Shown piece after piece: positions 29,003 to 40,513 of a stretch of DNA of 44,482 nt. This stretch comes from a virus. Every line of letters starts with the position of its first letter. The first letter of the stretch is position 1. Location of the stretch: the IMG/VR virus record IMGVR_UViG_3300020171_000057, positions 1-44,482 of that record. One strand, written 5' to 3'. Made by a program: the position numbers and the translations under genes. Under the pieces are notes generated by a model. It saw nothing but the letters and a program-made list of their open reading frames with translations. It was not told the origin of the DNA and did no database searches.

Positions 29003-30591
29003 ATTTTACTCCTTTCCAGTAATAGTGAATGGATTGCATCCGCTATCCTATCTGTTTCTTCACAATCTTGGTCTAATCCTATATCAGCAATAACTCTATG
29101 GATTTCCAAAGCACTCGGCACGCTTAATTTAAAGTGGGAAAATCTTTGAGCTAATTCAAGTCTATATCTTCGCCTTTCTGAATTAGTTTTACTCCTCTCT
29201 ATATTTAACTCATACCCTTCAAGCATATCTAAAATTTTGTTCTCCTCCAACTCTACCTTCGGCTCAGGCACTTCTTTGGGTTTGTTAATATAAATAGGTT
29301 CCCATTTCTTAAATACTGCTAAAGCACAAATAAGTCCATTAGCCATACCTCGCATATATGGGTCAGTCTTACTTGAGGGGTCATCAACTTGTATCTTTAC
29401 TAACTGCCATAATTTATCAACATCATTCTTTGCTTCTTTGGGACATTTCTCATCCTTCGGCTCAGGCTTTTCCTCATAAATGCTAAGTGCTCTTTCCCAA
29501 TACTCTATTTCTACTTCAGAAAGTTCATCTCCCACGCTTCCTCTTGCAGTTGCTATTTCTATTAAATCCTTCAATCTTTTTCTATTTATAGGCACGCTTA
29601 ATTTAAAGTGATTGCAGATGGATTGGGCTATACTATTTGTTTGGTTATAATAATCCTCACAGCTATCTATTGAGCGATTATCTAATAATTCTTCTACCGC
29701 CTTTTCCTCCAACCCTACCTTCTTATTATCTGTTGCTTCTCTTTTTAACCTATCTATTATCTTTTCCGCCACAGTCAAGTTACACCAGACGCAACTACTT
29801 CTAATGATTTTCTCTTTGACGTGTTCACATTGATATTCATTATTTACCTTGGGCAACATTTCTACCTTCGGCTCAGAAACTTCTTTGGCTTTGATTAGTT
29901 CCTCTTGTAATTGTTTTACTGCCTGTCCACAACCTGCCACAATAGCTCTTTCATAAGGCGAAGGGTAAGCATTTTCTCCATATTTCCATTCAGGGTGTAC
30001 TTTAATTTTATCACAGGCTTCTTTCATTTCTTTCATTGCCCAAGTTTCATATTTTTCCTGTTCCTTATACGCTTCTTTCCAAGTAACAGGTTTTATTTTT
30101 CCCCCATAACCATCATCTTCACCACCTTTGTGTTGATAAATAAGGTCATCTACCTTCGGCTCAGAAACTTCTTTGGTGGGTGGACATAGACAAGTATACA
30201 ATCCACATTTTGGGCAGAGCTCATCTTTGGCAGGGTCGGTATGTATAGAACAAGGTTGGTAGATGCAATCACAATATACTTTTATTTTCTCTTTCTCCTG
30301 TGAGACTTCTTTGGTGGGTCTTTCTATAATCTTGCTACAATCAGGATATACTTCATTTACGTCTTGAGGTGGTTCTTTAGCAAGATATCTGGGACAAGTA
30401 TCCATTACCCAGTCGCCCTTACAATAGTTTATACAAGATGGACAAATATCTCTCTCTTTCGGCTCAGAACAATAGTCAATGAGGGTTCTAAGTGCATCTC
30501 TATTTCTTAGTCCAAGAGGCGTTAGTGCTTCTTTGCTATCTAACATCTCCTTCATAAAAGTTGCTATCCCTACCGCTTCTTTAATATCCAT
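28999..30591 (-). CDS. Mosaic multi-module protein with zinc clusters and repeated linkers
   Basis: This 530-residue protein is a chain of short modules joined by nearly identical linkers of the type TKEVSEPKVE (about residues 137, 237 and 440, with shorter forms elsewhere). Modules include cysteine clusters (ICPSCINYCKGDW; YCDCIYQPC; LCPKCGLYTCLC; CEHVKEK...CVWC). HFKLSVP occurs twice (near residues 335 and 492), each followed by a helical module, with an exact 20-bp repeat in the DNA. The repeats make it a likely product of recombination between small phage genes. No activity is recognised; zinc binding is expected. Confidence 0.6.
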   Translation of the reverse strand: MDIKEAVGIATFMKEMLDSKEALTPLGLRNRDALRTLIDYCSEPKERDICPSCINYCKGDWVMDTCPRYLAKEPPQDVNEVYPDCSKIIERPTKEVSQEKEKIKVYCDCIYQPCSIHTDPAKDELCPKCGLYTCLCPPTKEVSEPKVDDLIYQHKGGEDDGYGGKIKPVTWKEAYKEQEKYETWAMKEMKEACDKIKVHPEWKYGENAYPSPYERAIVAGCGQAVKQLQEELIKAKEVSEPKVEMLPKVNNEYQCEHVKEKIIRSSCVWCNLTVAEKIIDRLKREATDNKKVGLEEKAVEELLDNRSIDSCEDYYNQTNSIAQSICNHFKLSVPINRKRLKDLIEIATARGSVGDELSEVEIEYWERALSIYEEKPEPKDEKCPKEAKNDVDKLWQLVKIQVDDPSSKTDPYMRGMANGLICALAVFKKWEPIYINKPKEVPEPKVELEENKILDMLEGYELNIERSKTNSERRRYRLELAQRFSHFKLSVPSALEIHRVIADIGLDQDCEETDRIADAIHSLLLERSKI

Positions 30592-30593
30592 AT

Positions 30594-30845
30594 CTACTCC
30601 TTTTGTTTAGAGAGTTGTTCAATGGTTATCTCTAATCTCTTAATGTATTTTCCTAATGGACTTTTCCTAATAAATCTTTGGCACTTGAATATTTCAATGG
30701 GGATTTTTCTGCCCCAAAGCCAAATAGCAAATTCTCCATATATATCTGTTAGGGCTTTTTTGTTTGTAATTTCATATAATCTTTTTTTAGTTCTATATTT
30801 TGGAGCTATGGAATACCATTCTTTTCTTATATCATTATTAGTCAT
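30594..30845 (-). CDS. Small basic protein, function unknown
   Basis: This 83-residue protein (MTNNDIRKEWYSIAPKYRTK) is basic and helical with two tryptophans in FAIWLWGRKIPIEIF and a helical end (KYIKRLEITIEQLSKQ). It overlaps the HNH gene by ATGA, so it is probably expressed from the promoter at 31530. Function unknown; nucleic-acid binding is possible. Confidence 0.55.
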   Translation of the reverse strand: MTNNDIRKEWYSIAPKYRTKKRLYEITNKKALTDIYGEFAIWLWGRKIPIEIFKCQRFIRKSPLGKYIKRLEITIEQLSKQKE

Positions 30846-31381
30846 CTCTCCTCCTTCCCACCCAACAATGACTGGCGTAGGGCGGTGGCTATAATTAAAA
30901 GTTTATAATTTTCTATAATTCTATGGCAATGCTCGCATATCCATAATACCTCTAAAGGTTTTTTATAATCTTCGTGGTGTGCGTGCAGTTTTCTTTTTTC
31001 ATAACAAAGCTGGCATAAATCTGGTTTTTTTATCTTGTTGCTTCTCAATGCCTTACTAACCTGACCTCTTGCAGAGGCTTTTTCTTTGTTTTTATAGTAA
31101 TAAACCAATGTTCTTTCGTTCCTTTTGTTTTTAAAATCTGGATTATCTTTAATTTTTAAATAGCGTTCTCTGGCATATAAGGCACTATTAGTCCTCCTTC
31201 TAATTCTTTTTTTCCTATCCATTTCTTTAGCTCTTTCAGGATTTTTCTTACGCCATTCTTTTTGATACTTTGATTTGCAGGCTTTTCCTTCTTTCGTTTT
31301 AACCCATCTTCTATTTTCTTCTAATAGTTTTTCCCTATTTTTTATATAATATTTCCTTGTCCACTCTTTCTTATTAAACAT
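30842..31381 (-). CDS. HNH endonuclease (copy 3), behind pseudoknot leader E1
   Basis: The N-terminal two thirds of this 179-residue protein are strongly basic helices (KEWTRKYYIKNREKLLEE, RAKEMDRKKRIRRRTNSALY), unlike the NUMOD3 repeats of copies 1 and 2. The nuclease has LCQLCYEKRKLHAHHEDYKK with Cys-x-x-Cys and His-His, then EVLWICEHCHRIIEN. It has a strong TTGGAGGG site directly after the T-run of leader E1, and the leader peptide stop overlaps its start codon. The downstream gene is coupled by ATGA. Confidence 0.83.
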   Translation of the reverse strand: MFNKKEWTRKYYIKNREKLLEENRRWVKTKEGKACKSKYQKEWRKKNPERAKEMDRKKRIRRRTNSALYARERYLKIKDNPDFKNKRNERTLVYYYKNKEKASARGQVSKALRSNKIKKPDLCQLCYEKRKLHAHHEDYKKPLEVLWICEHCHRIIENYKLLIIATALRQSLLGGKEER

Positions 31382-31472
31382 ATCTATCCCTCCAATAAAA
31401 AAGGCACCGTTCGGGTGTTAGTGAGAAAAGAGTTATCTTTTCAACCCTACTAAGTGCCAGTTTATCAGACAT
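31374..31472 (-). CDS. E1 leader peptide
   Basis: AAGGAG followed by TTTTTTTATG starts a 32-residue frame (MSDKLALSRVEKITLFSLTP, ending FYWRDRYV). It crosses the pseudoknot and terminator strands and stops 8 bases inside the HNH gene, so the two are translationally coupled. The ribosome site lies just after strand A1 and could be hidden when the pseudoknot forms. Whether the peptide itself matters is unknown. Confidence 0.55.
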   Translation of the reverse strand: MSDKLALSRVEKITLFSLTPERCLFYWRDRYV

Positions 31473-31495
31473 AAAAAAACTCCTTCCCCACTAAC
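31403..31495 (-). promoter_or_regulatory. Pseudoknot leader RNA E1 ahead of an HNH gene
   Basis: In RNA order: A1 GTTAGTG (31495-31489), B1 GGCAC (31458-31454), a short GGGT strand, hairpin AAAAGA/TCTTTT (31441-31426), A2 CACTAAC (31423-31417), ACCC, B2 GTGCC (31407-31403), then TTTTTTATT. A1 pairs A2 and B1 pairs B2, which cross, so an H-type pseudoknot can form. Stem B plus the T-run looks like an intrinsic terminator. The same order recurs in E2, E3 and E4. Confidence 0.7.
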
Positions 31496-31501
31496 GATTA
31501 A

Positions 31502-31530
31502 AGTATACCATTTTTATTGAGATATGTCAA
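31502..31530 (-). promoter_or_regulatory. Consensus sigma70 promoter P-E1
   Basis: TTGACA (31530-31525), 17 bp, TATACT (31507-31502) on the minus strand. The -35 lies in the last codons of the gene at 31514-31885 and uses its stop region. It would start RNA just before strand A1 of leader E1. Confidence 0.88.
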
Positions 31531-31885
31531 TACCATTTAATTTTATTTTCCCAAGCATAACCATTTTAGTAAGCCATAAAATTATTTCAGAACGGGCAGC
31601 ATTATAGCCAGTTTGATATAAATCAAATAAGTGTTTCTGTTCGTGTTCAGGCATATCCTCATCTTTAATCTTCGGCAACATCTTCTCACTTACATTTATC
31701 ACAGCGGAGGCGAGGGATATAATTAAATCAAATGCCTTCTTATAATTTTTCTCATAACTAAAAACTGCGGGAGTGTTATAAACTTCTTTGCCTGAATGCT
31801 TATCAATATCCACAGAAAAATCAGCCTGAATAGTTTTTAATATCTCCACGCTTTCCTTCACTTCATCTATGTTCGGTATGTTCAT
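31514..31885 (-). CDS. Helical protein, function unknown
   Basis: This 123-residue protein (MNIPNIDEVKESVEILKTIQ) is mostly alpha-helical, with YKKAFDLIISLASAVINVSE and a C-terminal part RSEIILWLTKMVMLGKIKLN. It has no cysteine cluster or signal. The start overlaps the NinG-like gene by ATGA. The promoter of leader E1 is embedded in its 3' end. No family recognised. Confidence 0.6.
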   Translation of the reverse strand: MNIPNIDEVKESVEILKTIQADFSVDIDKHSGKEVYNTPAVFSYEKNYKKAFDLIISLASAVINVSEKMLPKIKDEDMPEHEQKHLFDLYQTGYNAARSEIILWLTKMVMLGKIKLNGIDISQ

Positions 31886-32331
31886 AATGCCTCCTTTTTT
31901 TTGTAATATTCCAGTTTATCCAGTAAATCTGCCTTCAATAATTTTAGATCGCTTGTATATATCGGCTTACAATAAATCCTATCCTGCATTTCAAGCCACT
32001 CGACTTTTTCAAGGCCGATTTTCCTGATTAACCACTCACGATAAAGATGTGGGCGCTTATGAAACAGGAACAGGTGAACGCCGCCATTGAGTAAAACCAC
32101 GTTATCAAGATTGTGCCTTAAATGAATATTGGAACGTGTTATATAGTGAGAAACTTGCAAGTTATCGGTCTTGCCTGAATATAGGCAGACTTTATCACGG
32201 AGTTTAAGAATATCGCGGATAATCTGGTCAAGTTGCGCTATAAGCATAGCCCGCTCACTCTTGGAGTTCTTGCGTAAAGGACTCCGCTTTAAAACTGATT
32301 TGCCGCGCTTGAGCCAACTTCTCTTTAACAT
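31882..32331 (-). CDS. NinG/Rap-like recombination endonuclease
   Basis: The N-terminus of this 149-residue protein (MLKRSWLKRGKSVLKRSPLR) is the basic start typical of NinG. It is followed by RDKVCLYSGKTDNLQVSHYI, TRSNIHLRHNLDNV, NGGVHLFLFHKRPHLYREWL and IGLEKVEWLE, the order seen in lambda NinG (Rap), an HNH-like nuclease acting on recombination intermediates. It lacks the multi-cysteine zinc finger of the longer homologues. It is coupled to the methyltransferase gene by a 7-base overlap and belongs to the same recombination set as the NinB-like and exonuclease genes. Confidence 0.75.
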   Translation of the reverse strand: MLKRSWLKRGKSVLKRSPLRKNSKSERAMLIAQLDQIIRDILKLRDKVCLYSGKTDNLQVSHYITRSNIHLRHNLDNVVLLNGGVHLFLFHKRPHLYREWLIRKIGLEKVEWLEMQDRIYCKPIYTSDLKLLKADLLDKLEYYKKKEAL

Positions 32332-32879
32332 CCTAACCCCCTTACATCTTTACAGGTAGACGAAACGGTGAATAGCTCTGGTTGACTATTATCTTTTATT
32401 AACCAGCTCAATATTCTTATAGTATGATAACCGCCCGGGAACAAAAACCATAGTTTCTTTCTTTTAAATCCTGCCGGTAACGGGGCGCACATATCAAGCC
32501 ATAAAATATTAGTAGTATGCTTTTTAAAATATTCTACTAATTCCCTGCGCAATATAACATCTGCCGCCACACTTGAAGTTCTACCATATTCCTCAAGTTT
32601 AGATTTTCTTTTAATCTCATAGGGCGGGTCAAGTATGATAAAATCCCATTGCCTTGTATCGGTTTTTATAAAATCCAATATATCCTGTCTTTTAGTCGCC
32701 TCCGGGCGTTCAATATCAATTCGTTCTTCCCCTATCTTTGAAACCCCGCTAAATAAATGTAAAACCTTGCCATAAATAACCTCTCTTATTATATTGTTTA
32801 CCACCGGTGTAAATGCTCCGGGATACCCTGTAATATTGTTCCCTAATCCACATATCTCTATATCAAAAGTCTTATTCAT
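32325..32879 (-). CDS. DNA adenine-type methyltransferase (DPPY)
   Basis: ATG 32879 follows AAAGGAG at the usual spacing and gives 184 residues; the longer frame from TTG is less likely. Motif I is a variant (KVLHLFSGVSKIGEER, with an acidic residue in RIDIERPEA) and the catalytic motif is IILDPPYEIKR (84-87). An NPPY/DPPY motif means transfer of a methyl group to an exocyclic amino group, usually N6 of adenine. It is short and has no clear target-recognition domain. Likely role: modifying phage DNA against restriction. No partner restriction gene is seen. Confidence 0.75.
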   Translation of the reverse strand: MNKTFDIEICGLGNNITGYPGAFTPVVNNIIREVIYGKVLHLFSGVSKIGEERIDIERPEATKRQDILDFIKTDTRQWDFIILDPPYEIKRKSKLEEYGRTSSVAADVILRRELVEYFKKHTTNILWLDMCAPLPAGFKRKKLWFLFPGGYHTIRILSWLIKDNSQPELFTVSSTCKDVRGLGC

Positions 32880-32901
32880 ATCTCCTTTATGCAAGCAGTT
32901 A

Positions 32902-33279
32902 CTAATCTTTATCCATATTTTTTATAATAGGATATGGTGGTTTATCTCTATCAGAAATATCTATTTTCTTTAATCCTTCTTCGCGCGAAAAAGCCATAGT
33001 CCCATTTACCCTAACAGGACAATCAAATAATTCCCCATTTTTGGCTTTTTTCCAACAATCCTTTGCCATATTTTTGCCATAAGCAAAATCGCATTCAGTA
33101 TTTCCGCATACACAACCAGGACAATTTCTATCATAAAAACGATAAAGATTAACATAATTTTTTAAATTCTTTAAGCTTTCATCAACAATGAATTCCTGCA
33201 AATTATAACCAAACATATCTTTTAAAGCACCTCTCATGGCTTCTTCAAAATCACCTTTACTATAAATATATTCATTCAT
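32902..33279 (-). CDS. Cysteine-rich protein, function unknown
   Basis: This 125-residue protein has a helical N-terminus (DFEEAMRGALKDMFGYNLQE) and a cysteine cluster (RNCPGCVCGNTECDFAYG, then KDCWKKAKNGELFDCPVRV), probably one or two metal sites. The start overlaps the upstream stop by ATGA. It lies in the replication-recombination block. No family recognised. Confidence 0.58.
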   Translation of the reverse strand: MNEYIYSKGDFEEAMRGALKDMFGYNLQEFIVDESLKNLKNYVNLYRFYDRNCPGCVCGNTECDFAYGKNMAKDCWKKAKNGELFDCPVRVNGTMAFSREEGLKKIDISDRDKPPYPIIKNMDKD

Positions 33280-33575
33280 TTTCCAACTCCTTTCACTAAT
33301 TCCCTTATATTCTTACAGTTAGACAATTTATTTAATTCTACGCTTTCGGTAATATTTTGCTTGGCGTTATAATCCGCCCAGCACTCTTTGGCAGTCCGCA
33401 TAAACCACGCCCATTTGTTTATAATATGAGCTTTGTTTTTGAGATAGCTTTCACAGATAGTCATAATCACTTCTTCGGGTAGTTTTATATTTTCCTTATT
33501 GAGCTTGCCTAAATATTTGTAGATAGGGAAGTCTTTGTAAACTTTAACCATAATGTCCTCTGTATCTTTATTCAT
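33276..33575 (-). CDS. Replication-related small helical protein (tentative)
   Basis: This 99-residue protein has LPEEVIMTICESYLKNKAHI followed by NKWAWFMRTAKECWADYNAK. This resembles, by eye, the C-terminal region of phage replication-initiator or helicase-loader proteins, in which a helical segment with N-x-x-x-W-F precedes a basic end. The N-terminal winged helix such proteins have is missing here, but a separate gene at 34554-34895 has it. A split initiator is thus possible. It overlaps both neighbours. Confidence 0.45.
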   Translation of the reverse strand: MNKDTEDIMVKVYKDFPIYKYLGKLNKENIKLPEEVIMTICESYLKNKAHIINKWAWFMRTAKECWADYNAKQNITESVELNKLSNCKNIRELVKGVGK

Positions 33576-33777
33576 CGTTTCTTGCTTGCCATTTTTTATA
33601 ATCTATAATTATAAAATTCCTTAACTGCCCTGGCATTAGTGCAACCAATTTTCCTATTTTCGGATTACGCCTGATACAAACCATACCAGATAATTTAAGA
33701 CAAACCCACCACGGAGTAGCTTTATCTACTTTAGTATTTAAGATATAATCGCCCTTATGAACATCTTTAAATTTCAT
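33568..33777 (-). CDS. Small protein, function unknown
   Basis: ATG 33777 follows AAGGAG; an in-frame GTG 6 bases earlier is less well placed. The 69-residue protein (MKFKDVHKGDYILNTKVDKA) has a compact beta pattern, with PWWVCLKLSGMVCIRR and FIIIDYKKWQ. It overlaps the next gene by 8 bases. No family recognised. Confidence 0.55.
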   Translation of the reverse strand: MKFKDVHKGDYILNTKVDKATPWWVCLKLSGMVCIRRNPKIGKLVALMPGQLRNFIIIDYKKWQARNDE

Positions 33778-33802
33778 ACCCACTCCTTTTTTATTTCACT
33801 AT

Positions 33803-33970
33803 TCATTTTGTAACTATCCCCCCATCTTCATCTTGACATTCAGGGTGTTCCTTGCAGATAACTTTCAAGATACACCAGACGCTCATATCTTTATTATGCA
33901 GGATTATTTTATCGCCTACATCAGTATTTCGTATCGCTTGTAAAATTGCGTAACCTTTCGGGAATGGCAT
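33803..33970 (-). CDS. 55-residue protein, function unknown
   Basis: It starts at ATG 33970, sharing one base with the upstream stop (TAATG). The protein (MPFPKGYAILQAIRNTDVGD, with IILHNKDMSVWCILKVICKE) resembles a small beta-barrel, possibly of the SH3-like size class. Like its neighbour at 33568-33777 it contains a W-C-(I/V)-L-K pattern, hinting at relatedness. Function unknown. Confidence 0.5.
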   Translation of the reverse strand: MPFPKGYAILQAIRNTDVGDKIILHNKDMSVWCILKVICKEHPECQDEDGGIVTK

Positions 33971-34257
33971 TATCCCACCTCTTGCATTTCTGGATATTTT
34001 TCAGAATTTTTATATACTCTCAAAGCAGTTACCTCATATGATTTGCCTATATCTCTTTTTTCTTTCCAGTAATGGTCAAAATTGCAACATTGCCCTAACA
34101 TCATCATCCGCCCTATGCCAGCAATAGCATTTTTATAGCTCCCGACTCTTACTATCTGTTCAGCTACAACCAACGCCCTTAAAGCTATTTCTTCCCTACC
34201 CATTTTTCCACCCATTGCTTTTAATTCCTTACTTATTGTTAAATCATAAATAGCCAT
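33970..34257 (-). CDS. Small protein, function unknown
   Basis: This 95-residue protein (MAIYDLTISKELKAMGGKMG) has a helical core with VAEQIVRVGSYKNAIAGIGR and HYWKEKRDIGKSYEVTALRV. The start shares one base with the upstream stop (TAATG). It lies behind the repeat array and the initiator-like gene and may take part in replication, but no motif supports this directly. Confidence 0.55.
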   Translation of the reverse strand: MAIYDLTISKELKAMGGKMGREEIALRALVVAEQIVRVGSYKNAIAGIGRMMMLGQCCNFDHYWKEKRDIGKSYEVTALRVYKNSEKYPEMQEVG

Positions 34258-34466
34258 TATTTTTCTCCTTTTTTTCTTATTTTATAAATTTTTTTAGGGC
34301 GATTTAATGCTATTGCCCCTTCGTTAGGGTCATTTGCCATACAAAGCCTTGCCTCTGGACAACCACAATCAGGAAAAGTGCATTCAGAGGTCAACTTTCC
34401 TTTCGCAAGCGATGTCGCTTTCCTTTCGCAAGCGATGTCGCTTTCCTTTCGGCATAATGGTTTCAT
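34257..34466 (-). CDS. Small cysteine-rich protein encoded partly by the repeat array
   Basis: The frame is open from 34499. ATG 34466 behind AAAGGAAAG gives 69 residues; TTG 34400 is another possible start that would leave only the conserved-looking part. The first third (RKESDIACERKATSLAKGK) is the translation of the 23-bp tandem repeats. The rest has ECTFPDCGCPEARLCMAN, a cysteine motif seen in small phage proteins, then a basic end. The number of repeats therefore changes the protein length. Function unknown; metal binding expected. Confidence 0.5.
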   Translation of the reverse strand: MKPLCRKESDIACERKATSLAKGKLTSECTFPDCGCPEARLCMANDPNEGAIALNRPKKIYKIRKKGEK

Positions 34467-34530
34467 TCGTCGCTTTCCTTTCGCAAGCGAGCCAAGCACA
34501 ACCCTGTTTTTTCTCTCGCTTTCCTTTCGC
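34395..34530. repeat. Iteron-like repeat array next to the initiator-like gene
   Basis: A 23-bp unit, CTTTCCTTTCGCAAGCGATG plus TCG, occurs twice in perfect tandem (34395-34417 and 34418-34440), followed by partial copies at 34441-34451, 34473-34491 and 34519-34530 that keep CTTTCCTTTCG. The unit contains the inverted repeat AAGCGA/TCGCTT. The array lies about 25 bp downstream of a winged-helix initiator-like gene, as iterons of replication origins do. On the minus strand each unit also reads AAAGGAAAG, a ribosome-site-like sequence. Confidence 0.7.
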
Positions 34531-34553
34531 CAATCATTATATATATCTCCATA

Positions 34554-34895
34554 TCATACAACCTTACTGTTATAATAAAAATCCTTATACTTACCAATAA
34601 ACTTATACTTACTTACTCCTTGAAATAATCCGCCTTTTTTAGTATTTTCTATCCAGCTATTATCTAAAAGCTCTTTTAAAGCTCGGCTCATAGCTTTTGA
34701 ACCCATTATACCTTTCATCTGGCTATAAGTAACTTGGGTTTCTTTTGAATTTGAATAATCCCAATAATTCCTTAAATAAAGCCAGAGTATTTTTGCTCCG
34801 CTTGTTAATTTCTTCCACTCTACATCTTGTAATAGGTCTTTCCGCACCATAATAAAAGGCGGTAGTTTTACTTTCCCTCGTTTGAATTGGCTCAT
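34554..34895 (-). CDS. Replication-initiator-like winged-helix protein
   Basis: This 113-residue protein matches the N-terminal DNA-binding domain of phage replication initiators and replisome organisers: LPPFIMVRKDLLQDVEWKKL, TSGAKILWLYLRNYWDYSNS, TYSQMKGIMGSKAMSRALKE (recognition helix), LLDNSWIENTKKGGLF. It stops right after the wing (KYKFIGKYKDFYYNSKVV), so the C-terminal helicase-loading part is missing or encoded elsewhere. It is expressed from promoter P-E4 behind leader E4, with no ribosome site between terminator and start. It would bind the repeat array just downstream. Confidence 0.68.
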   Translation of the reverse strand: MSQFKRGKVKLPPFIMVRKDLLQDVEWKKLTSGAKILWLYLRNYWDYSNSKETQVTYSQMKGIMGSKAMSRALKELLDNSWIENTKKGGLFQGVSKYKFIGKYKDFYYNSKVV

Positions 34896-34905
34896 ATATC
34901 ATAAA

Positions 34906-35037
34906 TTAAAAACCTTGCAGGTGAACAATGCTTTTAACATTATTCTTTAAGCTGGGGAGCGCCTGCAAGGCAAAATAAAAGCGACGATTTAATTCTCCGT
35001 CGCTGATTTTTTGATTGTTTATAGTTATATTATTCAT
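34906..35037 (-). CDS. E4 leader peptide
   Basis: ATG 35037 stands 5 bases after GGGGAGCG, which is strand A1 and also the only ribosome-site-like sequence. The 43-residue frame (MNNITINNQKISDGELNRRF, ending SIVHLQGF) crosses the H hairpin, B1, A2 and B2 and stops in the T-run, 10 bases before the initiator-like gene. Pairing of A1 with A2 would hide its ribosome site. Peptide function unknown. Confidence 0.5.
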   Translation of the reverse strand: MNNITINNQKISDGELNRRFYFALQALPSLKNNVKSIVHLQGF

Positions 35038-35050
35038 TTTCACGCTCCCC
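34913..35050 (-). promoter_or_regulatory. Pseudoknot leader RNA E4 ahead of the initiator-like gene
   Basis: In RNA order: A1 GGGGAGCG (35050-35043), hairpin GCGACG/CGTCGC (35003-34981), B1 CCTTGCAGG (34970-34962), A2 CGCTCCCC (34961-34954, directly next to B1), B2 CCTGCAAGG (34921-34913), then TTTTTAATTT. A1/A2 is 8 of 8 and B1/B2 9 of 9. The crossing order A1-B1-A2-B2 is that of E1-E3. Stem B plus T-run has the form of an intrinsic terminator in front of a replication gene. Confidence 0.75.
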
Positions 35051-35062
35051 GATTATGATAAT

Positions 35063-35091
35063 AGTATACATTATCTTTTAAATCCTGTCAA
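35063..35091 (-). promoter_or_regulatory. Consensus sigma70 promoter P-E4
   Basis: TTGACA (35091-35086), 17 bp, TATACT (35068-35063). The TGA of the -35 box is the stop codon of the upstream 56-residue gene. RNA would start just before strand A1 of leader E4. Confidence 0.88.
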
Positions 35092-35258
35092 GCACTATTA
35101 ACATAATTCTTTCTACTCTTTCTACTATCATTAGGAGACAATATTTCATATCCCAATTCTTTTAATACACCATAAAGATAGTTTATATCCACTTCTATTT
35201 TACCTGTAATATCAAAATTATAAACTGATATAAGCCTACCTTCAAGTATTATTTTCAT
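35088..35258 (-). CDS. 56-residue protein, function unknown
   Basis: It starts at ATG 35258 with a GGAA-type ribosome site. The protein (MKIILEGRLISVYNFDITGK, IEVDINYLYGVLKELGYEIL) looks like a beta-alpha unit with a basic tail. Its stop is part of the -35 box of promoter P-E4. The 64 bases between this gene and the radical SAM gene hold nothing that I recognise. Confidence 0.5.
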   Translation of the reverse strand: MKIILEGRLISVYNFDITGKIEVDINYLYGVLKELGYEILSPNDSRKSRKNYVNSA

Positions 35259-35322
35259 ATATTTCCATAGAACTAACGTAAATTCATCTTATATACACCG
35301 TTGATATTGTTATGATCATAGC

Positions 35323-36117
35323 TTACTTCATTCTACTTCTTGTAATTGCAGGTCTTGACCATCTTCTTTGAAATCTTTTCCACGCCTTTGAATAATTTAT
35401 AGAATTTTCTTTATTTTTAAATAATTGGGCGAAAGGTTTACAACCTATGCGCCACACTTCTTTAAGGCGATGGATATTTTCTCTTGCGTTATCTCCTATC
35501 AATACAAAACAATATAAATTATCACGTTTAAATCCAGCTTTTTGTAATATAGCTACCGCTTTTCTTAGTGGTTCAATAGCATTTGGAGTATCACAAGCAA
35601 GCCATAATGATTTAATCCTTAATCCTCTTAAATCTTCAGCGATCCTCGGAGTTATCCTATATTTTTCAAGCCCACCCTTAAATTCAATAGCTTTTTGTTT
35701 TTTAAGCATATCCATTACTAACCGCCAATGCTTATCTGAACAAGCAAGGATATTATTATCTTGGATAATATTACCCTCTGGAAAGTCATCAAATTCTATA
35801 AGCCCTCGCCTTACCATACAAAAACTACAATTATTAGGGCAACCTCTTGAAGTAATTGTAATACCATTTTTAAGATATATGCCTATTTTAAATGGTTGTT
35901 CACTCTCGCCATCTATCGCCACTCCCCCTATTTTGACTTTACCTTTTGTTCTCCAAGCGGATGCTAACCTATGCGCCTTTTTAATATCCCAAGTGAATGT
36001 TGTTGATATATGAATTTCGTCATATATAGGTGTAAACAAATCTGGCTCATCAAAATAAGCGTCTTTATCATCAGGCGACATGCTTGTTTTAGTGGGAAAT
36101 ACTCTTGCTATTTTCAT
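35323..36117 (-). CDS. Radical SAM protein
   Basis: This 264-residue protein has TSRGCPNNCSFCMVRRG with the CX3CX2C iron-sulfur motif (Cys93, 97, 100), followed by barrel-like segments: NNILACSDKHWRLVMDML, KAIEFKGGLEKYRITPRIAE, IKSLWLACDTPNAIEPLRKA, FKRDNLYCFVLIGDNARENI, VWRIGCKPFAQLF. The enzymes cleave S-adenosylmethionine to start radical reactions. The N-terminal 85 residues resemble a shortened B12-binding-like lead-in but are too short for the domain. No partner or substrate is shown by neighbours; nucleic-acid modification is a guess. It is tandem with small early genes. Confidence 0.83.
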   Translation of the reverse strand: MKIARVFPTKTSMSPDDKDAYFDEPDLFTPIYDEIHISTTFTWDIKKAHRLASAWRTKGKVKIGGVAIDGESEQPFKIGIYLKNGITITSRGCPNNCSFCMVRRGLIEFDDFPEGNIIQDNNILACSDKHWRLVMDMLKKQKAIEFKGGLEKYRITPRIAEDLRGLRIKSLWLACDTPNAIEPLRKAVAILQKAGFKRDNLYCFVLIGDNARENIHRLKEVWRIGCKPFAQLFKNKENSINYSKAWKRFQRRWSRPAITRSRMK

Positions 36118-36155
36118 AATTCCATCTTCGGCTTACTTAAGAGAAGGGTCATAGG

Positions 36156-36344
36156 TTAAATGTTTTTTAAATAGCTATCTGCTAACTTTCCTTCTAATTC
36201 TGATACAATAGCCCTTCCGATTATATAAATATCGCTTATTTCAAAAGTATTCGCTGGAGGTTTTTCTTGTTTCATCCATTTTCCTGTCTTGTCTAAATCG
36301 TATTCTCTAATATGTTTCATAACAATATCATGTATTTTACTCAT
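36156..36344 (-). CDS. Small protein, function unknown
   Basis: This 62-residue protein starts after AAAGGAG. It is helical (IHDIVMKHIREYDLDKTGKW), with FEISDIYIIGRAIVSELEGK near the end. Its ribosome site belongs to a 16-bp sequence repeated in front of the gene at 36357-36581. Function unknown. Confidence 0.55.
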   Translation of the reverse strand: MSKIHDIVMKHIREYDLDKTGKWMKQEKPPANTFEISDIYIIGRAIVSELEGKLADSYLKNI

Positions 36345-36350
36345 CGTCCT

Positions 36351-36366
36351 CTCCTTTCAGGTTATG
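36351..36366 (-). repeat. 16-bp repeated ribosome-site region, copy 1
   Basis: CTCCTTTCAGGTTATG here and at 36588-36603 are identical. On the minus strand the unit reads CATAACCTGAAAGGAG and provides the ribosome site of the following gene; here it also encodes the stop of the gene at 36357-36581. Confidence 0.75.
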
Positions 36367-36581
36367 ACATCTTTTGCTCTTTCATTAAAAGGATTTATTT
36401 TGGGCGGGTTATCTACGCCAAAAGTCCAATTAGGTTTAATTTCCGCCCACGACCAATCTTCCTTACCTTCAACACGCAAAAAGAATTTAGGTTTTTCTAT
36501 CGGCAGTTCAGGGTGTTTAAGGTCTAATAATATCTTTTCAATCTGTCCCGCTATATACTGTTTTTCTTTCATACTAAACAT
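36357..36581 (-). CDS. Small phage protein, function unknown
   Basis: This 74-residue protein starts after AGGAG at 6 bases. It has a helix (KEKQYIAGQIEKILLDLKHP) then FFLRVEGKEDWSWAEIKPNW and GVDNPPKINPFNERAKDVI. The last phrase looks like a conserved end seen in small phage proteins, but I cannot name the family. It may be a DNA-associated accessory of the recombination block. Confidence 0.55.
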   Translation of the reverse strand: MFSMKEKQYIAGQIEKILLDLKHPELPIEKPKFFLRVEGKEDWSWAEIKPNWTFGVDNPPKINPFNERAKDVIT

Positions 36582-36587
36582 AAACTA

Positions 36588-36603
36588 CTCCTTTCAGGTT
36601 ATG
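36588..36603 (-). repeat. 16-bp repeated ribosome-site region, copy 2
   Basis: Identical to 36351-36366. It stands between the winged-helix gene and the 74-residue gene, 240 bp from copy 1, so the pair brackets one whole gene. Confidence 0.75.
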
Positions 36604-36615
36604 GGGTATAGGGGG

Positions 36616-36858
36616 TTACCTATCATTAGGATAAACACTCCATACATCCTCTTTAGTCTTACCATATACCATTTCCTTAATATCATCACGCATACGCCAG
36701 ATTAAGCCTTTTTTTGCCAAATCCCGCGCATCCCTTGAAGCCCTGTCGGGATGATAAATAGATACTCCAAAGGCGCAGACTTCCGAAGTCCTGGCCCTAC
36801 CCTTACTCGTTATAAATCTGTAAACCTGTTCTTTTTTGCTTAAATATAGGTCTGTCAT
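36616..36858 (-). CDS. Winged helix-turn-helix protein
   Basis: This 80-residue protein is one DNA-binding domain: KKEQVYRFITSKGRARTSEV (helices 1-2), FGVSIYHPDRASRDARDLAK (recognition helix), KGLIWRMRDDIKEMVYGKTK (wing). It may regulate early genes or act in recombination. It overlaps the NinB-like gene by ATGA. It is one of the few candidate transcription regulators in the genome, and no classical phage repressor was found. Confidence 0.62.
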   Translation of the reverse strand: MTDLYLSKKEQVYRFITSKGRARTSEVCAFGVSIYHPDRASRDARDLAKKGLIWRMRDDIKEMVYGKTKEDVWSVYPNDR

Positions 36859-37487
36859 TGATTTAAAAGTTTTTCTATGATTAGAGTATCTAAGCGTTCA
36901 CATTCTTCTTGCGTCAAGTCTCTAGGTTCACGCCCGCCAAAATTATCACTACACAACTTCATAAGGTTTGCCTGAGTCACGCTGCCCTTACCGACCCAAC
37001 CCATTAACTCCTCTAAAGTTTCAGGGCTGACTAACTGCGTCTTTCGGGCCTCGGTGTCTTTGGCTAACTGTTCTCTATATTCCTTTACCTCGCCAGAAGC
37101 AATGTCCACTTCTTCAGGGTCAGGGATTACTATGCCCAAATCTTCTGAAGCAAATTGCCTTATACTTTCAACATAAGCGGTAAATGCTACGGTATCTAAA
37201 GAAGTAGTTGAGCGCACAACAGGGAATTTGCCGAGATTATCAATTAAAAACATTGCCCTCATTGAGTCGTGGATTTCGTCAACTGTATAGCCGGTATGAT
37301 CGCTGATGAGTTTATAACAAACTGCCCAAAGATATCGATTCTGTGGAAGTGTCCTATCCTTTTTATGCCTGCGGACAATGACATCTACATTTTTTCCTTC
37401 AAGCAAGGTAAGATAATCGTTGAATAAACCCAGATTATCAAAGACTACCTTACCTGTTGAGATTATCGCTCGGAATATTGGACTCAT
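36855..37487 (-). CDS. NinB/Orf-like recombination mediator
   Basis: Residues 1-130 of this 210-residue protein carry the NinB pattern: RRHKKDRTLPQNRYLWAVCY, DHTGYTVDEIHDSMRAMFLI, TTSLDTVAFTAYVESIRQFA, DLGIVIPDPE. Lambda NinB (Orf) binds single-stranded DNA and SSB and helps load recombinase. Residues 135-210 are an extension not in lambda Orf (LVSPETLEELMGWVGKG, DLTQEECERLDTLIIEKL) that looks like a small helical module. It directly follows the SSB-like gene, consistent with a shared role. Confidence 0.72.
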   Translation of the reverse strand: MSPIFRAIISTGKVVFDNLGLFNDYLTLLEGKNVDVIVRRHKKDRTLPQNRYLWAVCYKLISDHTGYTVDEIHDSMRAMFLIDNLGKFPVVRSTTSLDTVAFTAYVESIRQFASEDLGIVIPDPEEVDIASGEVKEYREQLAKDTEARKTQLVSPETLEELMGWVGKGSVTQANLMKLCSDNFGGREPRDLTQEECERLDTLIIEKLLNQ

Positions 37488-37489
37488 AG

Positions 37490-37804
37490 TTAAAATGGAG
37501 CTTCTTCTCCTGCCTTTGATTGAGCGCCTATTATCTCTACTTCGTATTTAGTATCCATAGACTGCCCTGTTTTCGTAACCTTAATTTTACTTCCGACAGG
37601 TATCGCATCCATTAACTCGGCAAGCCTGACAGATTGAGAGTCAAAAGTTTTATCATCAATCTTGTACCTCATAACTTCTTTTTCCTCGCCAAAAGTTTCT
37701 TTAACAATGCTTTTCATTCCTCCAAAAATCCCTTCAATAATCCCGTCTTCATCAAACTTGACAAATGAAGAATTGCGTTTCGCAAAATCTTTACCGATAC
37801 CCAT
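37490..37804 (-). CDS. Putative single-stranded DNA-binding protein
   Basis: The body of this 104-residue protein is beta-rich (RYKIDDKTFDSQSVRLAELM, KIKVTKTGQSMDTKYEVEII), compatible with an OB fold. It ends GAQSKAGEEAPF. A short acidic tail ending in Pro-Phe is the hallmark by which bacterial SSB recruits partner proteins. It lies between the RecB-like exonuclease and the NinB-like gene, which fits. It is not a typical SSB sequence, so the call depends on the tail and position. Confidence 0.6.
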   Translation of the reverse strand: MGIGKDFAKRNSSFVKFDEDGIIEGIFGGMKSIVKETFGEEKEVMRYKIDDKTFDSQSVRLAELMDAIPVGSKIKVTKTGQSMDTKYEVEIIGAQSKAGEEAPF

Positions 37805-37805
37805 T

Positions 37806-38570
37806 TTATTCTCCTTTCTGTTGTGTTTCTAATTTTAAACTCGTTGGCAAATCTATTTTCTTTGGTTCTACACCTTCCTGCTCGTTCTGCCAAATCCTAT
37901 AAGCTGACTTAAAAAGGTCAAATTTATCTTCAATCTCTGTAAACTTGTATTTCTTTTTGTTAAGACGGTATCCGACTTGAAGTATCCCAAGTTTCAATAT
38001 CTTATGGTGCATTAAAGCGTGCCTATAAGCAGATACTTGCAACTCATATTCAGGCCAGATATACTGTCCTGTTTTAAAATCTATGAGCCAAGTTTCGCCT
38101 TTAACCTGGCACAAAAAGTCAACTGTGCCAGCGTAATGTAATTCCTCGTTGAATATTGCAACCTCTCTTGTTATTATTAAAGGCTTTACTTCTTTAAACC
38201 AGTTTACAAAACTTAATAAGCACTCATATTCTTCAAGTGCTAATTCTTCCAAGTTCCCTGTCTTAGGATTAGGATATTGCATATTCATTGCGATTTCATT
38301 CCCATCTATTAAGTCCATAATGGCCGAATGAACCTTTGAACCTTTATCACCTGCGGCCTGTTTAAGGGATTCCGACTCATCCCATCCATGATTAGCGAGC
38401 CATTTATAAAACGCCACACCTTTAGGATAATGCCCGCAAATCCATGTAACAGAGGGATAGAATACATCCTGCCCTGTTTTTTCGTCGGGTTTAACATAGA
38501 ACCTCTCATCCTCACAAGTTATCTGCATTGTCTTTTTATCTTCGGAAAGATATTTAATTATTTTCTTCAT
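37806..38570 (-). CDS. RecB/Cas4-type PD-(D/E)XK exonuclease
   Basis: This 254-residue protein has the full nuclease core: GSKVHSAIMDLIDG (His81), TREVAIF (Glu136), YAGTVDFLCQ (Asp151), TWLIDFKTG (Asp164, Lys166) and YELQVSAYRHAL (Gln178, Tyr182). This is the RecB-like family that includes phage recombination exonucleases. No cysteine cluster for an iron-sulfur site is apparent. With the SSB-like, NinB-like and NinG-like genes it forms a recombination set. It overlaps the HNH gene by ATGA. Confidence 0.8.
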   Translation of the reverse strand: MKKIIKYLSEDKKTMQITCEDERFYVKPDEKTGQDVFYPSVTWICGHYPKGVAFYKWLANHGWDESESLKQAAGDKGSKVHSAIMDLIDGNEIAMNMQYPNPKTGNLEELALEEYECLLSFVNWFKEVKPLIITREVAIFNEELHYAGTVDFLCQVKGETWLIDFKTGQYIWPEYELQVSAYRHALMHHKILKLGILQVGYRLNKKKYKFTEIEDKFDLFKSAYRIWQNEQEGVEPKKIDLPTSLKLETQQKGE

Positions 38571-39157
38571 CTGTCATCATCCTCATTTCTGGAGTCCCAA
38601 TCAACTCCGCTTTCGTGGTCGTCCTGTTCAAAATATTTTATCCAATATTCTCTATTATAACCTGTTTTACAATGACAACTTGTGCATAATGAAATAAGAT
38701 TATTTTCCATTATGTTAATTTTATTGTAATCTTTATGGTGAACATCAAGTTTTCTGCCATTTTCTACTTCTGAACAACCGCATAATTGGCACTTATAACC
38801 ATCTCTAAATCTAATTTGTTCTTTAAAAGTTTTACTCCATCCTAAAGGATACGGTTCAAAAGATTTTCCTCCTTTCCAATTAGAGCCATTCTCTCCCAAC
38901 TGGCCTTTTGCACAACATAAACGAGAACAATATTTAGTCCTATTTTTTCTTGAAGGACTTACTAAAAATTCTTTATTGCAAATTTTGCATATAATTAAAA
39001 TTCTTTTATCCTTTTTTCCTTTCCAGTAAATACTTATTTTTCTTTTAAATTCTTCCGTGTGTTTGTAACCTTTTTTTAGAACAGGATTTATTTCTATCAT
39101 GTGTTTTCTATATTCAAGATTTTTCCAAAGTAATTTTGTTTTTTCACCTGATGGCAT
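38567..39157 (-). CDS. HNH endonuclease (copy 4), behind pseudoknot leader E2
   Basis: ATG 39157 follows TTGGAGGGG and gives 196 residues. The frame is open upstream through the leader to 39247 and beyond, so a longer form is possible. It has TEEFKRKISIYWKGKK (NUMOD3-like), a cysteine pair region (ICKICNKEFLVSPSRK...YCSRLCC, a zinc finger), GSNWKGGKSFEPYPLGW, then the nuclease YKCQLCGCSEVENG, LDVHHKDYNKIN and NLISLCTSCHCKTG. The block NWKGGKSFEPY and what follows closely match copy 5, so the two are paralogues. It is coupled to the exonuclease gene by ATGA. Confidence 0.85.
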   Translation of the reverse strand: MPSGEKTKLLWKNLEYRKHMIEINPVLKKGYKHTEEFKRKISIYWKGKKDKRILIICKICNKEFLVSPSRKNRTKYCSRLCCAKGQLGENGSNWKGGKSFEPYPLGWSKTFKEQIRFRDGYKCQLCGCSEVENGRKLDVHHKDYNKINIMENNLISLCTSCHCKTGYNREYWIKYFEQDDHESGVDWDSRNEDDDR

Positions 39158-39176
39158 ATTCCCCTCCAATAAAAAA

Positions 39177-39270
39177 GGGCTTCGTTCAGCGTGTGGACAA
39201 AAAACAGTTAAGTCTTTTGAACGCCTACTAAAAGCCCCTGTTGGCATAAAAAAATCTGTTTTCTGTCCAC
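39177..39270 (-). promoter_or_regulatory. Pseudoknot leader RNA E2 ahead of an HNH gene
   Basis: In RNA order: A1 GTGGACAGAAAACAG (39270-39256), B1 GGGGCTT (39238-39232), CGTTCA (39223-39218), A2 CTGTTTTTTGTCCAC (39207-39193), TGAACG (39188-39183), B2 AAGCCC (39182-39177), then TTTTTTATT. A1/A2 is 15 bp with one G-T pair; B1/B2 and CGTTCA/TGAACG nest around A2, so A crosses B as in E1. TTAGTAGG after B1 and GAACG before B2 are shared with E1, as is CCTTTTTTATTGGAGGG at the 3' end. A frame from ATG 39247 crosses the element and runs into the HNH gene; it has no ribosome site of its own. Confidence 0.78.
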
Positions 39271-39276
39271 GATTAT

Positions 39277-39304
39277 AGTATACCATTTTATTAGAGTTTG
39301 TCAA
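39277..39304 (-). promoter_or_regulatory. Consensus sigma70 promoter P-E2
   Basis: TTGACA (39304-39299), 16 bp, TATACT (39282-39277), 2 bases after the stop of the gene at 39307-39513. From the -10 into A1 the sequence TATACTATAATCG resembles TATACTTTAATCG of P-E1. Confidence 0.87.
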
Positions 39305-39306
39305 GT

Positions 39307-39513
39307 TCACAGTAATCCCCAGAAGTCTGCAATATTCTGGTCTTTAGTGAAAGCATCTTCAATAATTTCTTCTGGCCCACAGTCTTCTGGCGAGAATAAG
39401 CATTCAACGCCGTCTTGGTCTACAAGTTTTAAACTATCCACTTCATCCGGTTCTTCGCCCTTTACTACCTTAATAAGCTCGATTGCTTCTAAAGTTCTGT
39501 CAACTGCGGTCAT
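39307..39513 (-). CDS. Small acidic protein, function unknown
   Basis: This 68-residue protein (MTAVDRTLEAIELIKVVKGE) is strongly acidic in its second half (VECLFSPEDCGPEEIIEDAF), which could mimic DNA or bind a basic partner. It overlaps its upstream neighbour by ATGA. It is the last gene of the unit behind promoter P-E3. No family recognised. Confidence 0.57.
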   Translation of the reverse strand: MTAVDRTLEAIELIKVVKGEEPDEVDSLKLVDQDGVECLFSPEDCGPEEIIEDAFTKDQNIADFWGLL

Positions 39514-39653
39514 GTTCGCCTCCTCGTTTTTATGCTTAACTGATATTTCCTTAATACCCTTGCCTGTAACTTGTGCAACCTCTTGGTTATATTCTTCCCT
39601 TCTTTAGCTGTGATCCTCACTATCGGGATATGGTTTGAATTTGCACGGGTCAT
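39510..39653 (-). CDS. 47-residue basic protein
   Basis: Both ends are coupled by ATGA overlaps. The protein (MTRANSNHIPIVRITAKEGK, then ITKRLHKLQARVLRKYQLSI and KTRRRT) is strongly basic and helical, suggesting RNA or DNA binding. A good GAGG site lies before the following gene within its end. Function unknown. Confidence 0.55.
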   Translation of the reverse strand: MTRANSNHIPIVRITAKEGKNITKRLHKLQARVLRKYQLSIKTRRRT

Positions 39654-39778
39654 ACCAACCCCTTAAACTCATCATCGTAAGGGCCTTTCATAGACTGGCT
39701 GAACCTACGATAAAGCCAGAACACAAGCGGCGCGGACAAGATAAAAAACAAAATCAGATAGCCCCATCCATCATTCAT
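39650..39778 (-). CDS. 42-residue single-span membrane protein
   Basis: It starts at ATG 39778 behind TTTGGAGG, with the stop of the E3 leader peptide overlapping the start (ATGA). It has one span (WGYLILFFILSAPLVFWLY) followed by a basic and then polar tail (RRFSQSMKGPYDDEFKGLV). It is the first gene expressed from P-E3, an early position that suits a host-takeover or exclusion protein. Function unknown. Confidence 0.6.
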   Translation of the reverse strand: MNDGWGYLILFFILSAPLVFWLYRRFSQSMKGPYDDEFKGLV

Positions 39779-39927
39779 AAACACCTCCAAATATAAAAAA
39801 TAGCCCCTGCCTTCTCACGGGTGCATAATGACTTTAGAGCCATTAAACACAAAAAATCGCAGGATGAGTGCGATTTATTTACAGGGGCTTTGTTTATTCT
39901 GTTTTTCCGTGAGAAGATTTTAAACAT
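39775..39927 (-). CDS. E3 leader peptide
   Basis: AAGGAG stands 5 bases before ATG 39927. The 50-residue frame (MFKIFSRKNRINKAPVNKSH, ending AIFYIWRCL) crosses A1, B1, the H hairpin, A2 and B2, and its stop overlaps the next start as ATGA. The end resembles that of the E1 peptide (FYWR / FYIWR), which follows from the shared DNA near the ribosome site. Confidence 0.55.
   Translation of the reverse strand: MFKIFSRKNRINKAPVNKSHSSCDFLCLMALKSLCTREKAGAIFYIWRCL
39802..39916 (-). promoter_or_regulatory. Pseudoknot leader RNA E3 ahead of small early genes
   Basis: In RNA order: A1 CTTCTCACGG (39916-39907), B1 AGCCCCTG (39889-39882), hairpin AAATCGCA/TGCGATTT (39876-39854), A2 CCGTGAGAAG (39820-39811), one base, B2 CAGGGGCT (39809-39802), then ATTTTTTATATTTGGAGG. 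A1/A2 is 10 of 10, B1/B2 8 of 8 and the hairpin 8 of 8. Because A and B cross, the fold is a pseudoknot; stem B plus T-run would otherwise act as a terminator. This is the cleanest of the set. Confidence 0.8.
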
Positions 39928-39970
39928 TTTTACTCCTTACATCGTCGGAGAACTTTATTCGATTACCTAA

Positions 39971-39999
39971 AGTATATACTATGCCAAACCCTTTGTCAA
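39971..39999 (-). promoter_or_regulatory. Consensus sigma70 promoter P-E3
   Basis: TTGACA (39999-39994), 17 bp, TATACT (39976-39971). It stands at the edge of the longest non-coding stretch. RNA starting here would have about 40 bases before the leader peptide start. Confidence 0.88.
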
Positions 40000-40212
40000 A
40001 TAAAATCGCATTTATTTTTCGTAGTTAACAATTTAGTTATGGAAGGTTATTTAGGTAAATAGGCGAATTTCGCGTTTAAAGGGCTAAAAAGGGGTTAAGG
40101 TAGGATATTCCGTGTTTTGAGAGAAAGTTCAACCTGAGGCATTTTTGAAGGGTAGTTTTGGCTATTATGAGTATGTATGATATATCTATACCCTATTCCT
40201 TAATCAAAAAGC
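40000..40212. other. Longest non-coding stretch, upstream of the early region
   Basis: These 213 bases between the lipoprotein gene and promoter P-E3 hold no convincing gene. Visible are the palindrome GCGAATTTCGC (about 40063-40073) and an A/T-rich segment, ATGAGTATGTATGATATATC (about 40168-40187), with inverted character. Both could be operator sites for the first early promoter. No terminator or repeat array is obvious. Confidence 0.4.
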
Positions 40213-40440
40213 CTAATCCGTTGAAGAAGTCCTGTGTTTTAAGGCGTCTTGCATAATATCATACATCGTGTCTTTATCGATTAGCCAGCCTTCAATAGGC
40301 GCAGGATCACCCGTTTTGAGATAATATCCTTGCTTTGTAACAGGCTTTATATTACTTTTTTGGCTTATACAACTTACCAAGCACCCTATTAAAAGTAGAC
40401 TCATCCCCAGACATAATAGCCTTGCCGGTATCTTTTTCAA
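40213..40440 (-). CDS. Small lipoprotein overlapping another gene
   Basis: TTG 40440, with AAAGGA upstream, gives a 75-residue protein with a full lipoprotein signal (MKKIPARLLCLGMSLLLIGC, then LVSC), two lipobox choices at Cys20 and Cys24; ATG 40404 would remove the basic start. The mature part has YLKTGDPAPIEGWLIDKDTM. Its first 89 bases lie out of phase inside the end of the 53-residue gene, like an Rz/Rz1 spanin pair, but that partner has no membrane anchor. An outer-membrane lysis or exclusion role is possible. Confidence 0.65.
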   Translation of the reverse strand: MKKIPARLLCLGMSLLLIGCLVSCISQKSNIKPVTKQGYYLKTGDPAPIEGWLIDKDTMYDIMQDALKHRTSSTD

Positions 40441-40513
40441 GTTTATCGTCCTTTCGTTTGAAGAAACCTTTTATAAATCCAAAAGCAGTATCCAATGCTT
40501 TTAATCCAGCCAT
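40352..40513 (-). CDS. 53-residue basic protein with an embedded downstream gene
   Basis: ATG 40513 stands 4 bases after AGGAGG. The protein (MAGLKALDTAFGFIKGFFKR, KDDKLEKDTGKAIM, TFNRVLGKLYKPKK) has an amphipathic start and basic ends. Its last 30 codons overlap the lipoprotein gene in another frame. The excellent ribosome site supports it. Function unknown. Confidence 0.6.
   Translation of the reverse strand: MAGLKALDTAFGFIKGFFKRKDDKLEKDTGKAIMSGDESTFNRVLGKLYKPKK

Follow-up and report, generated by a model that had tools for sequence, protein, structure and literature searches.

Leader-peptide attenuators of the trp and pyrBI type combine a short leader open reading frame (ORF), an RNA terminator before the gene and control by the ribosome. 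In phages, hairpins that sequester the ribosome-binding site (RBS) of the homing endonuclease genes I-TevI, mobE and segB limit their expression, and the gene 32 pseudoknot was described in 2010 as perhaps the sole viral example of translational autoregulation by a pseudoknot (PMC3014915). Antiterminator RNAs include HK022 put and Bacillus EAR (PMC11658703). The leaders described here lie in a 44,482-base tailed-phage record from IMG/VR (IMGVR_UViG_3300020171_000057; this whole stretch is hereafter called the window), whose genes are oriented on the minus strand; in annotated phages, even the closest relatives of its capsid protein are distant, reaching approximately 28% identity at best. Two of these leaders belong to a family of pseudoknotted RNAs with a terminator-like 3′ end directly before homing endonuclease genes. 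Like the trp and pyrBI attenuators, they carry a short putative leader ORF and a putative RNA terminator before the gene, with possible ribosome control; unlike in those attenuators, the leader peptide sequence is not conserved and the terminator would lie within a pseudoknot that uses the first nucleotides of the transcript. We know of none among the nearest known ideas in which a terminator loop is paired with the transcript's own first nucleotides.

The first-pass annotation of this DNA had proposed four consensus promoters (TTGACA, 16 to 17 nucleotides [nt], TATACT), each followed by strands in the crossing order A1-B1-A2-B2 and a T-run. Both features were confirmed on the minus strand, where the promoters, the leaders and the genes behind them lie: in a scan of positions 30500 to 40500, the four promoters were the sole sites reaching 11 of the 12 consensus positions, and the strand order and T-run were present behind each of them. 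We named the leaders by location S1 (31.5 kb), S2 (35.1 kb), S3 (39.3 kb) and S4 (40.0 kb); their promoters occupy 31502..31530 (S1, with a 17-nt spacer and an extended −10 TGG), 35063..35091 (S2), 39277..39304 (S3) and 39971..39999 (S4). Transcription start sites (+1) are predicted from these promoters, and genes are called early by their position and promoters. The view that all four leaders form one family had to be narrowed, as only S1 and S3 are homologous and constitute one RNA family; S2 represents a second class, S4 is unplaced, and both have the layout alone in common with S1 and S3.

In S1, strand A1 (31480..31495) begins 6 nt past the −10 hexamer, at the predicted +1, and its 3′ half, AAGGAG, resembles a Shine-Dalgarno sequence. 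It pairs with A2 (31417..31432) over 16 bp (GTTAGTGGGGAAGGAG in A1, CTCTTTTCTCACTAAC in A2), as supported by covariation and a shuffle test. Strands B1 (GGCACT, 31453..31458), C1 (GGGT, 31444..31447), C2 (31413..31416) and B2 (GGTGCC, 31403..31408) were placed by the model alignment. Between B1 and C1 lies UAGUA (31448..31452), a putative sarcin-ricin/loop E motif by sequence consensus, which faces GAAC (31409..31412). From A2 onward the leader is gapless, with A2, C2, GAAC, B2 and the U-run following one another, and the U-run together with the Shine-Dalgarno sequence TTTTTTATTGGAGG spans 31389..31402. A putative leader ORF of 32 amino acids (31374..31472) starts right past a U-run and ends just inside the endonuclease gene. 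The S3 leader (39163..39271) is built from the same parts, namely A1 (39256-39270), B1 (39231-39237), C1 (39221-39225), A2 (39193-39207), C2 (39188-39192), GAAC (39184-39187) and B2 (39177-39183), and its helix A comprises 15 bp. The A1 pairing reported in the first-pass annotation is thus real, while its length was underestimated, the 7-nt helix assigned to S1 being part of a 16-bp one.

The pairing was evaluated in A6, an alignment of 13 members fitted to a covariance model; the fit on helix A favours that helix, and B and C are absent from the model structure. In this alignment, on whose fitting the counts depend, helices A, B and C comprise 16, 6 and 4 pairs, of which 96.1% are standard; pairing drops to 41-52% when the partners are slid, and none of 500 shuffles reached the observed values. 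Changes on both sides were found in 24 of the 26 pairs (A 15/16, B 5/6, C 4/4), and the first five members alone gave the same picture. Helix A crosses B and C, and both crossing helices are supported by covariation. Given these compensatory changes and the difference in pairing between the true and the slid register, the covariation indicates that the S1-type crossing pairing is a real RNA pseudoknot. The covariation seen within this one genome also holds across phages, as revealed by the covariance model search of related phages that had been suggested as a check.

All contigs compared are metagenome-derived. Because the first relatives were found by motifs of the 3′ end (GAAC..TTTTTTATTGGAGG), the conservation of the 3′-end letters partly reflects this choice of motifs; pairing was never part of any search pattern. 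The 3′-end pattern, taken from S1/S3, led to leaders in L023 (of which L031 is a near-duplicate), L026, L027 and L028; the loci read carry three leader copies in L027 and two in L028. Model R1, built from five leaders with helix A as its only structure, blindly matched S3 (E value of 2.5e-13), a fourth copy in the L027 record and, among further pattern matches, L078 and L084. A promoter-only search devoid of leader letters yielded L203, its near-duplicate L205 and L224 with two leaders each, and a whole-record search added a third leader in the L224 record; L203, L224, L235 and L074 were all found via promoter or model. In all, the covariance model identifies leaders of the S1/S3 type in no fewer than six IMG/VR phage contigs besides the window, and several of these have two to four copies: the L027 record (G004) carries four, G014 three, the window, G012 and G013 two each, and the others one.

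Other searches were less productive. The pattern TTAGTAGG..TT.AAAAGA..AAC gave 15 chance matches and no leader in viral contigs, and among the matches of GTAG..GAA..TTTTTT.TTGGAGG only L023/L031 were genuine, the others being ordinary terminator-like sites or coding matches. No leader was found upstream of either of two protein relatives of the S1 endonuclease, and no confident leader at the PD-(D/E)XK relatives L032-L039 or among the matches listed for one pattern on bacterial genomes. Model R2 had no match in six individual genomes or in 390 genomes from two phyla, a set that does not cover prophages in general.

The pairing was also compared with chance. With helix B fixed, none of 2000 dinucleotide shuffles matched the crossing helix A of S1 or S3, and the corresponding values were p=0.002 for S4 and p=0.0145 for S2 (p=0.009 in a repeat); the S2 pairing judged alone is marginal. 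In 15 records or loci, a 5′-end helix of at least 14 of 16 pairs occurred at 22 of 442 promoter-like sites, including a few double-counted leaders or chance cases, versus 0.66% of random positions.

The members share a tight geometry. Helix A is 15 to 17 bp long, with a near-constant length, and A1 begins 6 to 7 nt past the −10 hexamer in the type-1 matches. Helix C (4 bp) sits inside B across the internal loop, and C2 adjoins A2 in nearly all members (gap of 0 to 1 nt), so that C and A should form one continuous stack, with the 5′ end of the RNA at their junction. The internal loop, with UAGUA opposite GAAC or a near variant, is sarcin-ricin (bulged-G)/loop E-like by sequence: AGUA/GAA is exact in approximately 6 of the 13 members, CGUA/GAA occurs in three, AUUA/GAA in one and GGA/GA-type variants in three. 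In most copies 5 to 7 T residues adjoin B2, giving the layout of an intrinsic terminator, a GC-rich stem followed at once by a U-run. In four leaders folded with A1 held single-stranded, the B-C hairpin was predicted to form, at −19 to −28 kcal/mol. The gapless A2-C2 joint and the near-constant length of helix A argue that A and B are present together and not mutually exclusive.

The leader ORF is a further recurrent part. The U-run behind A1 closes with a start codon in each of the 15 type-1 leaders (ATG in 13, TTG in 2), and the 3′ half of A1 is often Shine-Dalgarno-like. In nine of the 15 the leader frame stays open as far as the gene, compared with five and three for the other two frames, and it stops no more than 5 nt from the start of the gene in 5/15, versus 2/30 for the other frames.

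From these features we propose, at roughly even confidence, that each leader acts as a cis-acting pseudoknotted transcription attenuator, likely opened by the ribosome via the short leader ORF. In the nascent RNA, A1 would appear first, at the extreme 5′ end, followed by the start codon and then by B1 and C1. Once A2 is made, A1 and A2 would close the 15- to 17-bp helix, and the emerging C2 and B2 would pair with C1 and B1 within its loop to give a rod-like pseudoknot, in which B, the sarcin-ricin-like loop and C are stacked end-on on A with the 5′ terminus of the RNA at the junction. The first approximately 16 nt of the message would then be paired into the loop of the terminator hairpin. Since the U-run lies immediately past B2, we infer that the completed pseudoknot acts as an intrinsic terminator, placed immediately ahead of the Shine-Dalgarno sequence of the gene. 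A1 would double as the Shine-Dalgarno-like strand for the leader ORF that starts just past it, and a ribosome loaded before A2 is made may hold A1 off A2 and cover B1, so that the terminator could not form and the gene would be transcribed. In early-stopping leader frames, the terminating ribosome would sit on or past B1. The leaders would probably serve as an on/off valve for homing endonuclease and replication genes.

The genes behind the leaders are of several kinds. S1 is followed by an endonuclease gene (PHROG 2340, 30842..31381) and S3 by a NUMOD3/HNH homing endonuclease gene (38567..39160); S2 precedes a replication-initiation-like gene (34554..34895) with orthologs in G004, G014 and G012, and S4 a small gene starting at 39778. 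Small HNH/NUMOD endonucleases of approximately 110 to 200 amino acids are encoded behind S1, S3, L023, L027b, L027c, L074, L084, L203a, L224a, L235 and, by a weak match, L078, and in the members read the gene starts directly past the U-run. The leaders had been proposed to control entire early operons; they are indeed promoter-proximal, with the terminator-like B2 and U-run directly before early genes, but S1, S3 and most relatives stand directly before HNH genes. A cassette restricted to HNH genes was ruled out, as the gene after L027a is 56% identical to that behind S2 and the protein encoded after L203b shows a weak match of the replication-initiation type. Conversely, a third HNH endonuclease gene of the window (43306-43968), which adjoins the integrase behind a structural gene, is without such a promoter-leader; the leader is not carried by all HNH genes.

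In L074, a tRNA gene (2819-2883) lies approximately 1.2 kb downstream of the leader and homing endonuclease. A unit of 17 to 23 nt (CTTTCCTTTCGCAAGCGATGTCG) recurs several times in tandem-like fashion at 34395-34532, in or near a small predicted gene and immediately downstream of the gene behind S2. In G004, the minus-strand read-out from 18325 contains direct repeats of AGTTCTGTAGTTTTGACCAAT near a replication-initiation-like gene (17804-18088), and these are possibly origin iterons. Elsewhere in the window (44300-44482), GGCAACGTCGGCATCGGGACGACGGCACCT is repeated in a tail/fibre-like gene running off the contig end.

The S2 leader (34900..35050) contains A1 (35043-35050), a hairpin with a T-run (34972-35004), B1 (34962-34970), A2 (34954-34961), B2 (34913-34921), a T-run (34908-34912) and a leader ORF (34906-35037). 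In the S4 leader (39784..39927), the leader ORF starts at 39927 and is followed by A1 (39907-39916), B1 (39882-39889), a hairpin terminator (39850-39876), A2 (39811-39820), B2 (39802-39809) and the T-run with Shine-Dalgarno sequence (39784-39801). Both thus carry an extra hairpin with a T-run between A1 and A2; their A1 is not at +1, and helix C is missing. S2-like leaders with different stem sequences precede the orthologs of the S2-controlled gene in G014 and G012. The G014 leader has helices GGGAGGCA/TGCCTCCC and GTCCGGTAGG/CCTATCGGAC and shares the hairpin CGACGGAGAATT with S2, the G012 leader has GGTGTCTT/GAGACACC plus a 14-bp B, and helix A of the three leaders jointly gave p=0.003 in the shuffle test, although that of G012 is not significant alone (p=0.21). 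A search pattern from the S2-type hairpin matched only G014 and one unrelated site, and relatives of S4 are not yet found. A fourth helix (D), spotted by eye in the S2 class, received no support in a direct test.

The layout recurs without sequence relationship. Two further promoters with A1-B1-A2-B2 and a T-run behind them suggest convergence on this layout: one, read by eye, lies at minus-strand position 37353 of G012 and precedes an HNH-like gene, and the other lies at plus-strand position 43497 of G003. More distant examples occur in the L026 record, L028 and L079. At the gene orthologous to 34554-34895, the leader is S2-like in two other phages (G014 and G012) and S1-type in a third (G004, L027a). 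The occurrence of both types at one orthologous gene suggests that the two classes are interchangeable, and the shared strand order of these unrelated leaders suggests that the A1-B1-A2-B2 layout itself is under selection.

Several observations weigh against a ribosome-opened attenuator. Six of the 15 leader ORFs end after 3 to 19 codons and A1 of S3 has no clear Shine-Dalgarno sequence, which leaves leader translation putative, and open leader frames are only modestly in excess. Two members (CTTTAATTT and TCTTTTATT) have a weak U-run. When A1 is free, a nested-fold program shows helix A in S1-type leaders; as it picks A alone, A might compete with B rather than coexist with it. A role in mRNA stability is also conceivable for this knot, and it is possible, if unlikely, that it constitutes a 5′-end protector and translation enhancer, whose long helix blocks 5′-dependent decay and whose U-run is a ribosome stand-by site. 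The position of A1 at the predicted +1, the 5′ end at the A/C junction and the near-fixed distance of the U-run and Shine-Dalgarno sequence from the start codon would suit such a role, but a GC-rich B2 adjoining a U-run is how terminators are classically laid out, an arrangement that is found again in unrelated classes (S2, S4, G012b and G003b), and neither S2 nor S4 starts at +1.

We consider it rather improbable that the knot is an RNA operator whose internal loop and linkers are bound by a phage protein to repress or activate early genes, in the manner of gp32 on the T4 gene 32 pseudoknot (PMC3014915). The unpaired positions UUUUUUAUGUC, UAGUA/GAAC and AAAACUUAAC are conserved beyond the needs of pairing, several copies occur per genome, and the T4 precedent (PMC3014915) is likewise a phage mRNA leader pseudoknot with coaxially stacked helices that controls a gene. 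The gene 32 knot differs in being small, with an A+U-rich RBS region behind it and no terminator-like U-run past the second stem, in lacking a helix from the first transcript nucleotide and in serving one gene only. Whereas the gene 32 knot lies upstream of the gene for the protein that binds it, the leader type described here precedes unrelated genes (endonucleases, replication genes and small ORFs); simple autoregulation through a single product therefore does not account for all copies, and no candidate binder was found.

Two further readings appear very unlikely. The terminated RNA of approximately 100 nt, with both ends locked, could itself be the product, a trans-acting small RNA to which the downstream gene is incidental; a promoter, a compact fold and a terminator do make up the layout of a small-RNA gene, but a Shine-Dalgarno sequence and a gene follow the copies at a near-fixed distance, and the helix A sequences are entirely different between copies within one genome. 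Slighter still is the chance that the knot is a processive antiterminator that modifies RNA polymerase to pass later terminators. Like HK022 put and Bacillus EAR (PMC11658703), the leaders are structured cis RNAs near the head of the transcript, they stand at the start of early transcripts, and two of them, S2 and S4, have an additional hairpin and T-run in their interior; unlike put and EAR, which cause read-through, they end in a terminator-like B2-U-run, and most copies lie directly ahead of an endonuclease gene and not of a known long operon. DNA-level inverted repeats serving as protein operators, or chance, can practically be dismissed even though A1 and A2 form long inverted repeats, since 27 of the 201 paired cells in helix A (approximately 13%) are G-U, a mismatch in DNA that favours RNA, the arm sequences vary widely, three helices covary and shuffles fall short of the observed pairing.

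That no described RNA family matches these leaders, as the first-pass annotation had put it, agrees with the database searches. Rfam 15, including riboswitches, HEARO and self-cleaving ribozymes, gave no match in the window at E≤1, and a tRNA was the only match at E≤0.5 in 17 leader-carrying stretches. L027b had no match in annotated phages and S1 none in plasmids, and a literature search, with subscription literature mostly outside its coverage, returned nothing relevant on such a leader. HEARO, the omega RNA of IscB, is likewise a structured RNA directly upstream of an HNH-encoding gene; unlike HEARO, the leaders have no Rfam match, precede small HNH/NUMOD proteins that are not IscB, and have an A1 that pairs internally. 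An HDV-like ribozyme, which has a similar strand order, was rejected, as A1 at the transcript start leaves nothing to cleave off and Rfam is silent. The I-TevI, mobE and segB hairpins (PMC3014915) are also RNA structures ahead of phage homing endonuclease genes; these hide the RBS in read-through transcripts, whereas the present leaders are promoter-linked pseudoknots with a terminator layout that recur in several phages and also before non-endonuclease genes.

More speculatively, phages and their homing endonucleases may place before early genes a portable, protein-free switch for ribosome availability, consisting of a promoter and a 5′-anchored pseudoknot terminator, with the gene made only if free ribosomes arrive at the nascent 5′ end ahead of A2 synthesis and with several unrelated RNA classes having converged on A1-B1-A2-B2-U. 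The S1-type leaders add a strongly covarying RNA family to uncultured phages, in which few cis-regulatory RNAs have been described, and present an unusual putative terminator geometry, with the first nucleotides of the transcript paired inside the terminator loop. They also offer a concrete route by which freestanding homing endonucleases may carry their own expression control.

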